A stretch of DNA of 64,000 bases from Colwellia sp. D2M02 (lineage in GTDB: Bacteria; Pseudomonadota; Gammaproteobacteria; Enterobacterales; Alteromonadaceae): positions 11,573 to 75,572 of the forward strand of contig NZ_JAHKPW010000085.1 in the NCBI RefSeq assembly GCF_018860755.1, read 5' to 3'. Numbering within the stretch: position 1 is the stretch's first letter; the number at the start of each line of letters is the position of its first letter. The notes under the pieces are model-generated. The model saw only the letters and a list, made by a program, of their open reading frames with translations. It did not search any database and was not told where the DNA came from. The translations under genes and the position numbers were made by a program. Below, piece after piece: positions 39,234-45,123 of the stretch.

Positions 39234-40262
39234 ATGCCAACGATAGTTGATAGGCAACACCCTTCCTTATTCAGAGCCATGCAGCCTTTGGCTAACTTAA
39301 TGGTGTTGTTCTGTTTATTCGTTGTTTCTACCACACTTAATGCTCAGCAAACGTACTTTAATAAAGCGGCTATCGATAAAGGTTACCAATTTACCTATCA
39401 GTGGCTCGATTATAATGACCAAACCCAAAAGCTAAGTTTTCAATTAACACAGCAAAGTTTATTTGACCGATTCAGACAGTTAAAAAGTTATCAAGCCAGC
39501 TATGCTCAAAAGGCTATTCTACGTCGCTTAAAGCAACATTTAAGAAAAAAACCAGTACAAGGTGTACAAGTCAGCTTTCGGCAAACTAATGGGGAATATC
39601 GCATTAATGTGAAAGGACAAGATCAACAGAAAGTATCTAAAACTTATCAACAATTAATAAAACTAGAGTCAACAATTCAACAACAATATTTTCAAGAGAA
39701 TTATTATCAACCTTTTACTAACCACGATAACATTACCGGTATAAAAGTAGATCACGGAGCAATAGCTAATGACTCTGTTGATGATTTAAAACTGATGAAG
39801 CCGATTATATTAGAACAAGTGTCTATTCAAAATATTCGTCAAGTAACAAATTATGTATTAGGTTTTGTACAAAGTATCCCTTATAGCCCTTTAGAGTCAC
39901 GTATTAACTCTTCTGGCTCAGGCTTTAACAATCCTACGAAAGTATTGTGGGAAAACCAAGGGGATTGTGACAGCAAAATGACATTAACCGCGAGTATATT
40001 AAGGGGGCTTATGCCACGGATTGAGATGGCATTACTCTATATAGATAAGCATGCGTTTATTGGTATTTCAATTCCAAGTGAGGCGGGTGAAGTGAGTATT
40101 GAACATCAAGGTGTTCATTATGTACTAGCTGAGCCAACTGGCCCAGCTTTATTGCCTTTAGGTCAACTAGCGCCTGAATCAAAGCTTGCCATAGACCAAG
40201 GCCGCTATACGGTTGAGCCTTATCATGAAGTCATCAACAGCACCGCCAATAATGACGATTAA
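39234..40262 (+). CDS. Secreted transglutaminase-like cysteine protein
   Basis: The 342-residue protein starts with an unusually long signal region: about 20 polar residues and then a hydrophobic stretch (about 18-36) ending in LNAQ, so it is exported or membrane-anchored. The C-terminal half has a transglutaminase-like core with Cys245 in GDCDSK, His273 in DKHAFIGI and Glu300 in VLAEPTGP, an apparent Cys-His-acid triad. The N-terminal half (about 40-200) is rich in Gln and helix-forming and has no domain I recognise. A ribosome-binding site GGAG precedes the ATG. Its stop shares bases with that of the convergent Dyp peroxidase gene. Substrate is unknown; peptidase or amidase activity is as likely as cross-linking. 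Confidence 0.75.
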   Translation: MPTIVDRQHPSLFRAMQPLANLMVLFCLFVVSTTLNAQQTYFNKAAIDKGYQFTYQWLDYNDQTQKLSFQLTQQSLFDRFRQLKSYQASYAQKAILRRLKQHLRKKPVQGVQVSFRQTNGEYRINVKGQDQQKVSKTYQQLIKLESTIQQQYFQENYYQPFTNHDNITGIKVDHGAIANDSVDDLKLMKPIILEQVSIQNIRQVTNYVLGFVQSIPYSPLESRINSSGSGFNNPTKVLWENQGDCDSKMTLTASILRGLMPRIEMALLYIDKHAFIGISIPSEAGEVSIEHQGVHYVLAEPTGPALLPLGQLAPESKLAIDQGRYTVEPYHEVINSTANNDD

Positions 40263-41273: not shown

Positions 41274-42197
41274 TTACATAACACTCCACAAGCCTTCATC
41301 ATTACGACACATCAGCTCTCTAAGCACTTCTTTTTCTTTAGCAAACGAGTTCTCAAACGTGAGGTGATAACATAATTTTTCATGTTTAGTAACCTTCTCA
41401 CCTTTGGTAATAGTGCCTCTATTGCCACTTTCAACGTTATACCAAATAACCTTAAGCTGGCTAGAGTGATCAAGCAGTAAAATAACCTTTTCTTGCATTA
41501 ATGCAACATCTTTAGCGGTTAATTTTTTAGCTGAACGAGAGCTTGAGTCAACAATTCCGCTTAACCCTGAAACCACTTCAAAAGGCAAAGACACAACCCC
41601 TTTTAAAAAACCCGATACTAAACCGCTACTTGCCTCGCTACCTATAGTTTTAGCACTAATAACAATATTCTCAGCGCGCGTTAAATATTGCGGAATATAT
41701 TCTTTAGATTGCTCTATTTCAGCTAAGTATTGTGTTGAATGAGGCCGCCAAAGTGCCGCTTCATTGACAACATTTTGCGTTGTAACGGTAATATTATCTA
41801 TACGTTTAAAAATGTGTGGCAATTGCTTTTCAATAGACGATAAGTTCTGCTCTACTAAAGCAACTTGTTTAAGTATTGCTGGAATTTGCTGTGAGTAATG
41901 TTCGCTTTCCCTTATAACTTGCTGGATAACTGGTAAGGTCGCTGAGACTTGCGTTAAAACAGTCGGCACTTGCGTTGCTAATTGCTCCCTAACTAAAGTA
42001 ACTTCTGCTCGAACTAAAGCAACCTCGTCAACTATACGATCAATTTCAGGGCTAATATTATCAACATGTTGCACAGTATTATTAATAGTAGTCAGTATTT
42101 CTGGAATATAGCGACTAATATTAAATAGCGAGGCAGCTAAAGCGAATAGTGCCAATGAAAAGGTAAGCTGTATAAGTGATATATTTTTGGGCATCAT
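41274..42197 (-). CDS. Membrane-anchored coiled-coil protein with surface-antigen-like C-terminus
   Basis: I do not know this gene by name. The 307-residue product has one N-terminal membrane helix (about 8-27), a long stretch of heptad-like helix with repeated Ile/Leu/Val spacing (about 30-190), a Gly/Ser-rich hydrophobic segment (about 193-222), and a C-terminal module of about 75 residues. That module has WYNVESGNRG (Trp252), Cys276, Cys297 in LMCRNDEGLW and a terminal Trp304. This pattern of Trp, TGxxG and paired Cys before a DG-W end resembles the C-terminus of RT0821/Lpp1805-type 16-17 kDa surface antigens. It lies 16 bp after the hybrid kinase gene and is probably co-transcribed. Confidence 0.6.
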   Translation of the reverse strand: MMPKNISLIQLTFSLALFALAASLFNISRYIPEILTTINNTVQHVDNISPEIDRIVDEVALVRAEVTLVREQLATQVPTVLTQVSATLPVIQQVIRESEHYSQQIPAILKQVALVEQNLSSIEKQLPHIFKRIDNITVTTQNVVNEAALWRPHSTQYLAEIEQSKEYIPQYLTRAENIVISAKTIGSEASSGLVSGFLKGVVSLPFEVVSGLSGIVDSSSRSAKKLTAKDVALMQEKVILLLDHSSQLKVIWYNVESGNRGTITKGEKVTKHEKLCYHLTFENSFAKEKEVLRELMCRNDEGLWSVM

Positions 42198-42213
42198 ATT
42201 TGAGCATTATTCA

Positions 42214-45123
42214 CTAGGCTGACTGCACTAAAGTTATTTCATCGATCAAGCAATGGATAAGATCATCAATAAAGCAACTTTGCTGTTTTTTCTCACTTGC
42301 TGTTAGCACGCGTTCTTCACTGCTTATTTTTTTAAGGTAACTATCAAGCTCTTTGGCTGCTTGACTTAACTCAGTAAAACCAAACATTTGTCCCGCCCCT
42401 GAAATTCTATGTACAGTCTTAGCGAGTAACTCTTGGTTATGACTTGTTAAGTAATCGGTTAGTACCTTAAGCTCCTCTTGTAAGCTTACTTTATAATCTT
42501 GCGTTAAGTCTTTTAAGCTTAAACTTGCTAACTTTGCTGTTGCTTTTGAAGCATCGATATTAGGGTAGTGTTGAGCAATAGTATGAATAAAACTTTCTCT
42601 TTCGATAGGTTTTTTCAAATGCCCATTAAAACCAAGTGTAATATATTGACTTACTTCATGTGACATTGCATTCGCCGTTAAGGCATAAATAGGTTGTATA
42701 AAGCCAATTTTTCGTAGTTGAGTAAATGCCGTAATGCCATCCATTTCTGGCATCTGGATATCTAATAAAACTAATCTTGGTTGATGTTTCTGGCATAACT
42801 CAATCGCTTCAAGACCATTTTTAGCACAGAACACTTCAAGTCCTAGGCTCTCAAGTAACCGTGCGATTAGACGTCTATTATCATCATGGTCTTCAGCTAA
42901 GAGTATTTTACCCGTAATCTGTATTGGCTTTACAGCTTCACTCTCTAGTGCTTTATGTGTTTGTTTATAGTCTACTGGCTCAGTCTTTGCTATAACCGAG
43001 CAAGGCAATATAAATGAAAAGCAGCTACCTTTTCCGGCTTCACTTTGTACAGTGATTTCACCGCCCATTAACCTCGCTAATTCATTAGATAATGACAGCC
43101 CTAAACCTGAGCCTCCAAAGCGTCGACTGATGCTGCTATCAGCTTGTGTAAATACCTCAAAAACCTGAGCTATTTGCTTTGATTTCAAACCTATTCCTGT
43201 ATCTATAACGGTGAACTTTAGTCGGTCTATAGACCAATCTACGGTTAAGGTAACACTTCCCTTGGCAGTAAATTTAATCGCATTGGAGCACAGGTTTATT
43301 AAGACTTGCCTGACTCGCCTTGCATCAATATCAATAATAAATGGAAAGGAAATTTGATGCTGTATTGTAAAAGTAAGACCTTTACGTTGTGCTTGCTCTG
43401 CAAACATGTCACCTAACTCTTGGATGATAACTTCTAGGTTTTGCGGTCTTAACTCAAGCTGAAATTTTTCTGCTTCTATTTTACTTAAATCTAAAATATC
43501 ATTAATTAGTGCTAATAAATGCAAGCTATTACCATGAATAACGTCAACCTCTTTAATAAGATCTTCATGGTTAACATCCCGGTGAATTATTGCTTCGGCA
43601 TGGCCGACAATAGCTGTTAACGGGGTTCTTATTTCATGGCTCATATTCGCCAAAAACTGGCTTTTAATCTTATTCGCTTTCCTTAATCTTTTACCTGTTA
43701 ACTCTAATTCATTGGTTCGCTGCTGTACTCTTTTTTCTAATACGGCTGTGACACGACTCTCAAGATAACGACGATAAACAAAGAAGATTAACAACAAAAG
43801 CAAAACCACCGATAACAGTATAAAGCTTCGTCGTTGATCCGTTTTTGCTGATTGTAACTCTTCTAACCTTTTCGCTTGGCGCAACTGTATAACTTGTTGT
43901 GCTAATTGCTCTGATTCAAACTTAGCCAACTGTTCGTTTAGCATTAAGTTATCTGCTTCATGCTGGTGTCTTTCGTGAGCATAAAAGTCATTAAGTGCAT
44001 TTTCCTGCTGGCCTAAACCAGCATATATCAAAGCGGAAATAGCCAAGTTATCAATCAAAATTGTTTTGTAATTAATTTTTTTAGCAATAGCATTAGAGAG
44101 CTCGATACTCTCTTGAGCTAATAAAAACGCCCCCTGAAAGAAGTAAATTTTAGCCAATACTTGTAAGCTACCAGCATGGGCCTTTTGATGCCCAACCTGC
44201 TGACTTAAGACAATTGCTTTTTCAGCATACTTTTGGGCTTTTTTATAATCACCTAAAGAAGTATATACTGCGGAAATGTTATGAAATTGTGATGCGGTAT
44301 CATGCCGATGGCCTTGCAATTGAAAATAAGTTAACGCTTCTAAAATATTTTTTTCAGCAAGTTTGTATTGTCCTGAGTACTTATAGGCAATACCTAAACC
44401 TGCAGTTGCTTTAGCAGCACTTAACTTATCCTGAAATTGATTAAACTGTGTAATAGTTTCTTTAAGCATACCAATTGCAATACCAAAACGTTTAAGATTG
44501 ACATGCAATAGTGCAATATTAAAACGTACATCAACCTTATCAGCTTCACTACCGTAAGCTTGATACAAAGCTTCAGCCTGTTGATAGTGATATAACGAAT
44601 TAGTACTATCTCCCATAGAACTAAAAACTAAAGCAAGATTATTAAATAAGTTAGCCCGTACAAGAGCGGTTTTACTATTATTTAAATCGCCTTTATCATT
44701 ATAAAATGCCAAGGACTGCTGATAATGCAATAACGCTTTATCTAGCTCGCCCTGATAATAATAAACCACCCCTAAAAGATTATCAGCCTTAGCAATAAGT
44801 GAATTATCTTCTATCTCTTGCACGATAGCTTTCGCTTGTAACGCTTGCTCTATCGCTTCTTGGTAACGTGTGAGCACATAAAGCAACTTTCCTTGCTCAA
44901 ATAATACTGAAAACTTTTGCTGGGCTGATAAACCGCTCGCCATAAATAGTTGTTGTAGTTCTTTTAAGGCATGGTCTTTATCTGCAGTATTACTAATAAT
45001 AAATAGCTGTTTATTAAAGTCTTTATGATAAGTGCTTATATTACTTTCTGTATGCACATTGGCTGAAGAGGGGGTGACATTGCCAAATAAGCAAAGCAAT
45101 AGTAGAAAGTAGAACTTTTTCAT
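42214..45123 (-). CDS. TPR-containing hybrid sensor histidine kinase with receiver and HPt domains
   Basis: The 969-residue protein has a Sec signal (1-21), a periplasmic block of about eight TPR repeats (about 75-395), a coiled coil, one membrane helix (433-450), then a cytoplasmic kinase. HisKA has His496 in MSHEIRTPL, the ATPase domain has the N box (NLCSNAIKF, 610-618), DTGIGL (641) and GGSGLGLSL. A receiver domain carries Asp788 (LLDIQMPEMDG) and Lys838, and the C-terminal HPt domain has His905 (TVHRISGAG). So a complete internal phosphorelay is present, and the final target regulator is not in the window. The TPR sensor suggests a protein or peptide ligand; the downstream coiled-coil membrane protein is a candidate partner. 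Confidence 0.9.
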   Translation of the reverse strand: MKKFYFLLLLCLFGNVTPSSANVHTESNISTYHKDFNKQLFIISNTADKDHALKELQQLFMASGLSAQQKFSVLFEQGKLLYVLTRYQEAIEQALQAKAIVQEIEDNSLIAKADNLLGVVYYYQGELDKALLHYQQSLAFYNDKGDLNNSKTALVRANLFNNLALVFSSMGDSTNSLYHYQQAEALYQAYGSEADKVDVRFNIALLHVNLKRFGIAIGMLKETITQFNQFQDKLSAAKATAGLGIAYKYSGQYKLAEKNILEALTYFQLQGHRHDTASQFHNISAVYTSLGDYKKAQKYAEKAIVLSQQVGHQKAHAGSLQVLAKIYFFQGAFLLAQESIELSNAIAKKINYKTILIDNLAISALIYAGLGQQENALNDFYAHERHQHEADNLMLNEQLAKFESEQLAQQVIQLRQAKRLEELQSAKTDQRRSFILLSVVLLLLLIFFVYRRYLESRVTAVLEKRVQQRTNELELTGKRLRKANKIKSQFLANMSHEIRTPLTAIVGHAEAIIHRDVNHEDLIKEVDVIHGNSLHLLALINDILDLSKIEAEKFQLELRPQNLEVIIQELGDMFAEQAQRKGLTFTIQHQISFPFIIDIDARRVRQVLINLCSNAIKFTAKGSVTLTVDWSIDRLKFTVIDTGIGLKSKQIAQVFEVFTQADSSISRRFGGSGLGLSLSNELARLMGGEITVQSEAGKGSCFSFILPCSVIAKTEPVDYKQTHKALESEAVKPIQITGKILLAEDHDDNRRLIARLLESLGLEVFCAKNGLEAIELCQKHQPRLVLLDIQMPEMDGITAFTQLRKIGFIQPIYALTANAMSHEVSQYITLGFNGHLKKPIERESFIHTIAQHYPNIDASKATAKLASLSLKDLTQDYKVSLQEELKVLTDYLTSHNQELLAKTVHRISGAGQMFGFTELSQAAKELDSYLKKISSEERVLTASEKKQQSCFIDDLIHCLIDEITLVQSA

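Follow-up and report, generated by a model that had tools for sequence, protein, structure and literature searches.

Does the sensor kinase with tetratricopeptide repeats (TPRs) encoded in Colwellia sp. D2M02 form a dedicated system with the membrane-anchored rod protein encoded next to it? The question is raised by a 64,000-nucleotide stretch of contig NZ_JAHKPW010000085.1 (the window), in which the gene of a 307-residue rod protein (41274..42197, minus strand; delimited by its open reading frame [ORF] and its homologs) lies 16 bp downstream of the gene of a 969-residue TPR hybrid histidine kinase (42214..45123, minus strand). An initial annotation had proposed that the two proteins are sensor and partner of an undescribed system. 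Here, each gene was found to survive without the other; thus, the two look like neighbors rather than a proven sensor-partner machine, and the case for reading them as a pair is weak. As far as sequence can tell, the novelty lies in the rod protein itself. Its family has no name, and the members combine an inner-membrane anchor and a heptad rod with a GxxxG motif that precedes a proline and, optionally, with a 17 kDa-antigen module.

Organization of the kinase and rod genes

The kinase was delimited by its ORF, Pfam matches, and motif positions. Its sensor region comprises approximately residues 77 to 310 (44194..44895, minus strand) and is predicted to be periplasmic from TPR_12 and other TPR models in Pfam, hydropathy, and likeness to TPR proteins of known structure. 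The only strong hydrophobic segment, residues 432 to 450 (43774..43830, minus strand), lies between the TPR region and the kinase core. It is followed, on the same strand, by a HisKA domain with His496 (43468..43665), a HATPase_c domain (43000..43326), a receiver domain with Asp788 (42577..42906), and an Hpt domain with His905 (42316..42507). TPR_12, HisKA, HATPase_c, Response_reg, and Hpt all scored above their own Pfam cut-offs, and the three phospho-acceptors were exactly placed, each within its motif. The TPR sensor and internal relay of the initial annotation, as well as the 16-bp spacing and the membrane anchor of the second protein, were thus borne out by ORF coordinates, domains, motif positions, and hydropathy. 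No response-regulator gene was seen among the neighboring ORFs of the window when the list was read by eye.

Retention and loss of the two genes in the genus

A census of 39 genomes (Colwellia together with Litorilituus) was used to follow both genes. The rod-protein profile matched 32 genomes and the kinase TPR region matched 37. The two genes adjoined in 27 genomes, that is, in all 27 holding both. In nine genomes, the kinase was retained but the rod gene was broken or lost (G628, G174, G630, G222, G615, G626, G629, G631, and G636); the rod gene was frameshifted in G628 and reduced to remnants in G174 and G630. A full-length kinase frame of 946 to 1,013 residues was present in eight of these nine. 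The kinase and peroxidase genes of G615 were both fragmented, which suggests assembly errors. Conversely, a rod gene without a match to the kinase TPR region was found in two genomes (G613 and G624), where what appear by eye to be the last 15 to 20 kinase codons stand upstream of the rod gene. The contig of G638 ends within the kinase, and this genome was uninformative.

Scars of the rod gene were detected by profile among 30 short translations (matches at E ≤ 5.1e-4). They were present in four (G174, G629, G630, and G636) of the eight genomes with neither a full-length nor a frameshifted rod gene, and the other four had no detectable scar. The independent losses of the rod gene numbered six on a tree of flanking genes and as few as four on a kinase tree, which groups G615, G626, G628, G629, G631, G636, and G638. 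Both trees were built with FastTree and midpoint rooted, with no support shown. On the flank tree, the placement of G638 (a single gene) and of the window genome is poor, and the latter differs in position between the two trees. A kinase can also be damaged beside an intact rod gene: in one of the 27 pairs (G614, locus L212), the kinase carries one in-frame stop.

These losses, which run in both directions, led us to reject an obligate sensor-ligand pair. A kinase and an accessory protein, such as CpxA with CpxP or TorS with TorT, would be expected to be kept or lost together; nine kinases without an intact rod gene and two rod genes alone, among 39 genomes, depart from that pattern.

The adjacency of the two genes is part of a larger block. 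In each of the 29 genomes of the genus that have a full rod gene, the gene after it encodes a peroxidase. Because the peroxidase gene is so faithful a neighbor, the adjacency of kinase and rod gene reflects block-wide synteny, which is no more telling for the kinase than for the peroxidase. Among 22 loci from named records, which are largely the same genomes and hence not independent of the census, 20 showed the kinase, the rod gene, and the peroxidase gene consecutively; of the other two, L166 retained no more than a remnant of the rod gene, and L163 lacked the kinase.

The degraded rod genes share one trait. Four of them, located downstream of the kinase in G630, G629, G636, and G174 (loci L207, L202, L204, and L024), retained their last 26 to 76 codons, and G630 has its first 24 codons fused in one frame to the last 28. 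A signal that serves the peroxidase gene downstream may lie in the 3' end of the rod gene; alternatively, the deletions may have a common origin.

The gap between kinase and rod gene ranged from -56 to +138 bp in 26 of the 27 pairs, 14 of which overlapped when the longest frames were taken; the 1,324-bp gap calculated by frame for G614 is due to its in-frame stop. Such short gaps suggest shared transcription.

Distribution beyond the genus

Outside the genus, the two genes part company. In a family sample of 246 genomes from 52 genera, the kinase TPR region (threshold of E ≤ 1e-15; some matches may be paralogs) matched 69 genomes in 15 genera, and the rod protein matched 15 genomes in 4 genera. 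Rod-protein relatives outside the genus aligned over at least 235 residues in four genomes, and a fifth match was weak (E = 7.7e-4) and confined to the coiled coil. Within approximately 7 kb of the four relatives, in stretches of 15 kb, no homolog of the window kinase was present. Three of these four genomes (G027, G071, and G103) had a TPR-region match elsewhere than the rod relative, on another contig or approximately 2 Mb away. The expectation that the genes stay adjacent in related genomes therefore held within the genus, where they are usual neighbors, and not in these three outside genomes holding both, where they are unlinked.

At order level, 34 of 295 sampled genomes matched the family profile (E ≤ 1e-6), and four further families accounted for 31 of these. 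Eighteen of these 31 loci were examined, and 17 showed no homolog of the window kinase among the ORFs of the stretch. In the sole exception (L269), the homologs, at distances of three and two genes, were a sensor without TPRs and its regulator, respectively. The neighbors of the 18 rod genes, with functions read by eye, differed between families. At class level, 35 of 369 genomes, including the window genome, matched at E ≤ 0.001; one other full-length match (G438) was on a contig of 3.3 kb, too short to be very informative; the remainder matched via the C-terminal module or the coiled coil. The rod family thus spans at least five families of one order, with named examples in Colwellia, Litorilituus, and one Photobacterium record. 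In another genus of the family, three rod relatives (L026, L027, and L028) were all located between genes for proteins of approximately 2,200 and 190 residues, with one extra ORF in L026.

This distribution bears on the possibility that the rod gene belongs to the regulon of the kinase as one of its outputs and is kept adjacent for autoregulation, without physical contact between the proteins. The short gaps would fit, since with shared transcription either gene could later go alone. The relatives of the rod gene in other contexts speak against it; because of them, any link of this kind would be specific to the genus, and we regard the explanation as unlikely.

The kinase has other neighbors of its own. 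Directly upstream of the homologous TPR kinase, genes of one cluster occurred in 22 of 72 kinase loci (among them L062, L066, and L071, outside the genus), on the same strand in 13 cases; 61 of the 72 loci were outside the genus. The single member scanned was an Ion_trans channel. This upstream gene may be a better lead on the signal of the kinase than the rod protein.

Architecture of the rod protein

The rod protein begins with a hydrophobic segment at residues 6 to 24 (42126..42182, minus strand), the predicted membrane anchor. It contains no Cys, which rules out a lipobox; the first Cys of the protein (P0001) does not occur before residue 276. A lipoprotein signal with Cys, as in the 17 kDa surface antigen lipoproteins, is thus absent. 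Hydropathy, by itself, is consistent with the initial placement of the kinase sensor and the rod protein on the same side of the membrane.

Residues 28 to 185 (41643..42116, minus strand) form the heptad rod. The hydrophobic period was strongest at 3.5 residues in all eight rod proteins tested. Gap lengths within the rod took 12 distinct values, 7 of which were multiples of 7 (1.7 expected if random), and prolines recurred mostly every 14 residues in four distant relatives. Structure prediction gave one helix from residue 8 to 185 and then, after a weak stretch, a compact module of helix plus strands. The rod measured 153 to 175 residues in 23 of 28 family members. A helix rises 0.15 nm per residue, so approximately 160 residues of continuous helix would extend about 24 nm (23 to 26 nm for 153 to 175 residues), near the width of the periplasm.

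After the rod, a glycine-zipper-like motif (GxxxGxxxG followed by proline) occupies residues 192 to 205 (41583..41624, minus strand), as determined by alignment and by a motif scan over homologs. A loose GxxxG...P motif followed the rod in all 28 proteins scanned, a count to be taken with caution because the profile that gathered most of these proteins covers the motif. From the motif to the end there were 99 to 126 residues in 17 proteins, leaving room for the C-terminal module, and 13 to 26 in the other 11 (L267 by its fitting motif match). The glycine-rich segment is also hydrophobic, with its best 19-residue window at residues 198 to 216 (1.43).

These features permit another arrangement, in which the protein is an inner-membrane scaffold whose proline-punctuated heptads lie along or folded on the inner membrane, with the glycine-rich segment inserted there and the outer membrane not reached. 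The hydrophobicity of that segment, the proline spacing of mostly 14 residues in the distant relatives, and the low confidence of the model in the stretch that joins the rod to the C-terminal module are in keeping with it. The fairly constant rod length and the Pfam name of the C-terminal module, given for outer-membrane surface antigens, point the other way, and we find this arrangement doubtful.

Kinship of the C-terminal module

The last part of the protein, residues 224 to 306 (41280..41528, minus strand), resembles 17kDa_Anti_2 (PF16998) and has two conserved Cys. The window protein matched this model at E = 3.1e-4 and 21.0 bits, under the gathering cut-off of 26.6. Ten of 13 homologs matched at E ≤ 0.01, and one full-length homolog (L169) passed the cut-off with 34.3 bits; the same gene matched the family profile A1 at E = 1.5e-109. 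When the family alignment was searched across the class, short proteins were drawn in through the C-terminal module alone, and all three that were scanned exceeded the PF16998 cut-off. In an alignment with 17kDa_Anti_2-type proteins, both Cys columns were invariant in 25 rows and a Trp near the end was conserved at ≥90%; the pattern of two Cys and a Trp was taken from this alignment, not from a formal definition. The kinship with 17kDa_Anti_2, as read from these sequences, is therefore sound despite the sub-cut-off score of the window protein. The surface-antigen-like C terminus (last 75 residues) of the initial annotation holds through the homologs, and the module did not turn out to belong to an unrelated cytoplasmic family.

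Modeled alone (residues 215 to 307), the module reached a mean predicted local distance difference test score (pLDDT) of 94. No solved relative of the rod protein was found by sequence at E ≤ 1, and the C-terminal profile had only weak matches to solved structures (best E = 0.055, interleukin-4). A fold search of the PDB returned nothing at E ≤ 0.001 for either the full rod model or the C-terminal model, the best Foldseek match of the latter having an E value of 0.39. VIA-align gave middling scores (best Z of 5.8 with a pseudopilin filament model, then methyltransferases), and we read these matches as arrangements that are probably common.

Divergence of the rod protein and the kinase

The two proteins diverge together to a similar degree in all parts of the kinase. 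Over 300 of 351 genome pairs (51 were dropped for missing flank data), the correlation with rod-protein divergence was 0.868 for the TPR region, 0.880 for the kinase core, and 0.888 for the receiver-Hpt part. Given three flanking genes, the partial correlations of the whole rod protein were -0.005, 0.019, and 0.116, respectively. For the rod part alone they were 0.185, 0.157, and 0.254, and for the C-terminal module -0.169, -0.119, and -0.091. TPR region against kinase core, which truly belong to one protein, kept a value of 0.598. A nearby gene on the plus strand (39234-40262), which lies between the peroxidase and acyl-CoA dehydrogenase genes and encodes a conserved 342-residue protein with no Pfam match at E ≤ 0.01, tracked the rod protein at 0.715 against 0.316 for the TPR region, given two other flanking genes. 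With partial correlations near zero and no TPR-specific signal, a contact between kinase and rod protein inferred from shared divergence was rejected; tests of this type do miss many real contacts.

The rod protein might still be an optional accessory partner that binds to the TPR region and so modulates the kinase, a relaxed form of the original proposal. The two genes adjoin wherever both are present in the genus, 14 of the 27 pairs overlapping by longest frames, and TPR motifs are described, in the portion of the source consulted, as interfaces for protein-protein contact (PMC11053733). Moreover, TPR divergence, measured from four reference genomes with G615 left out, was slightly higher in genomes with the rod gene missing or broken (0.538 to 0.584, n = 8) than in those with it (0.514 to 0.569, n = 6), while kinase-core divergence was similar in the same genomes. 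A real link between kinase and rod protein could also explain this difference, which we give little weight because the genomes compared are related. Against such docking stand the kinases that outlive the rod gene, the two rod genes without a kinase, a partial correlation for the TPR region no higher than that for the kinase core, and the equally faithful peroxidase gene. Overall, we judge an accessory role to be rather improbable. The dedicated sensor-partner system of the initial annotation is not supported, in view of losses both ways with scars, unlinked genes outside the genus, and the lack of coupling specific to the TPR region.

A tentative reading of the locus

The reading that we favor, at somewhat less than an even chance, is that two separate envelope functions are encoded in one transcription unit of the Colwellia lineage, one an orphan kinase and the other a rod-shaped tether or scaffold. 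It draws on the domains, heptad periodicity, conserved motif, neighbor statistics, and losses computed here. Two independent envelope genes would have come to share a genus-specific, presumably cotranscribed unit. The orphan hybrid kinase would read a periplasmic cue via its TPR region and pass phosphate from His496 to Asp788 to His905 and on to a response regulator encoded elsewhere. The N-terminal helix would hold the rod protein in the inner membrane, and the heptad rod of approximately 160 residues would run into, or perhaps across, the periplasm. The glycine-zipper-like segment may engage a membrane or self-associate, and the 17 kDa-antigen module would form the distal tip, close to the peptidoglycan or to the outer membrane and possibly in contact with the latter. 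The protein would most likely act as an envelope tether or scaffold, useful yet dispensable.

Several observations weigh against this reading in addition to the slightly higher TPR divergence of genomes without a working rod gene. Localization, oligomeric state, transcription, and outer-membrane contact are all predictions. The modeled rod helix had a pLDDT of only about 70, prolines recur in it, and residues 181 to 214 scored below 50; thus, the rod could fold back. Four of the 28 family members had shorter rods, of 142, 135, 133, and 128 residues; a fifth short value, 112 in L267, came from a mis-scored motif, the first match being off target and the fitting one lying at residue 193. The C-terminal module is absent from the 11 members that end 13 to 26 residues past the motif and so is not essential to any shared function. 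The boldest alternative, a membrane-to-membrane ruler whose coiled coil, anchored in the inner membrane, punctuated by prolines, and nearly constant in length, inserts the glycine zipper into the outer membrane (together with the 17 kDa-antigen module in some lineages) and which in Colwellia reports envelope spacing or state to the TPR kinase as an optional input, strikes us as very improbable.

Comparison with known systems

No Pfam or NCBIfam model reached its cut-off for the window rod protein or six distant relatives; only the C-terminal module of one homolog passed. Likewise, no description of the rod family was found in the literature covered, namely titles and the starts of abstracts. 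MotW of Vibrio cholerae (PMC8789113) was set aside as a relative by its description alone, which in the portion consulted mentions immunoglobulin domains and a lysine-rich tail. A phage or defense origin was also rejected; no PADLOC or PHROGs family matched the window rod protein at E ≤ 0.001. Over its TPR and receiver parts, the kinase had three weak partial matches in PADLOC (E = 2e-4 to 4e-4). A distant relative of the rod protein (L236) weakly matched a PHROG of unknown function (E = 2.7e-5). The closest resemblance to an uncharacterized domain was to DUF948 (PF06103), matched weakly by 12 of 13 homologs (E ≤ 0.01). The scores, 19.4 bits for the window protein and 32.9 for the best of six distant relatives, were below the gathering score of 37.2, and this likeness may reflect coiled-coil similarity only.

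The kinase is of a known kind. It shares the HisKA-HATPase-receiver core of TorS/BarA-type hybrid kinases, matching the TorS model at E = 1.3e-95 and the BarA model at 7.2e-95; it differs in its TPR sensor, and its scores are far below the equivalog cut-offs (321.4 versus 676.5 bits for TorS and 318.9 versus 890 for BarA). TPR sensor kinases are already known, an example being FimS of Porphyromonas gingivalis, which according to the portion of the source consulted has TPR motifs in a periplasmic sensor domain, a signal that is unknown, two transmembrane regions, and FimR as its partner (PMC11053733). The window kinase likewise has TPR motifs in a predicted periplasmic sensor and matches the FimS model (NCBIfam NF053520) at E = 5.1e-36, with the best stretch at residues 305 to 707, but it carries its own receiver and Hpt domains. 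It is not FimS, because it scores 124.1 bits against an equivalog cut-off of 600. With a kinase of known kind and a pairing confined to the genus level, the claimed kinase-rod system loses most of its appeal; the part of the claim that endures is that the second protein belongs to no named family in the databases searched.

The rod protein is closest to the glycine-zipper lipoproteins of PF16998 (17kDa_Anti_2) and PF05433. It is like them in the C-terminal module, which has two Cys and, close to the end, a Trp, and in the glycine-rich GxxxG segment that precedes this module; one relative (L125) matches both families. It differs in that a transmembrane anchor and a long heptad rod replace the lipoprotein signal, and it is itself below the Pfam cut-off. 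What the locus still offers is a family of envelope proteins without a name, built on a heptad rod whose prolines in some lineages are mostly spaced by two heptads; the C-terminal module is optional. Should the rod protein bridge the membranes, it would join the known tethers that span the periplasm.

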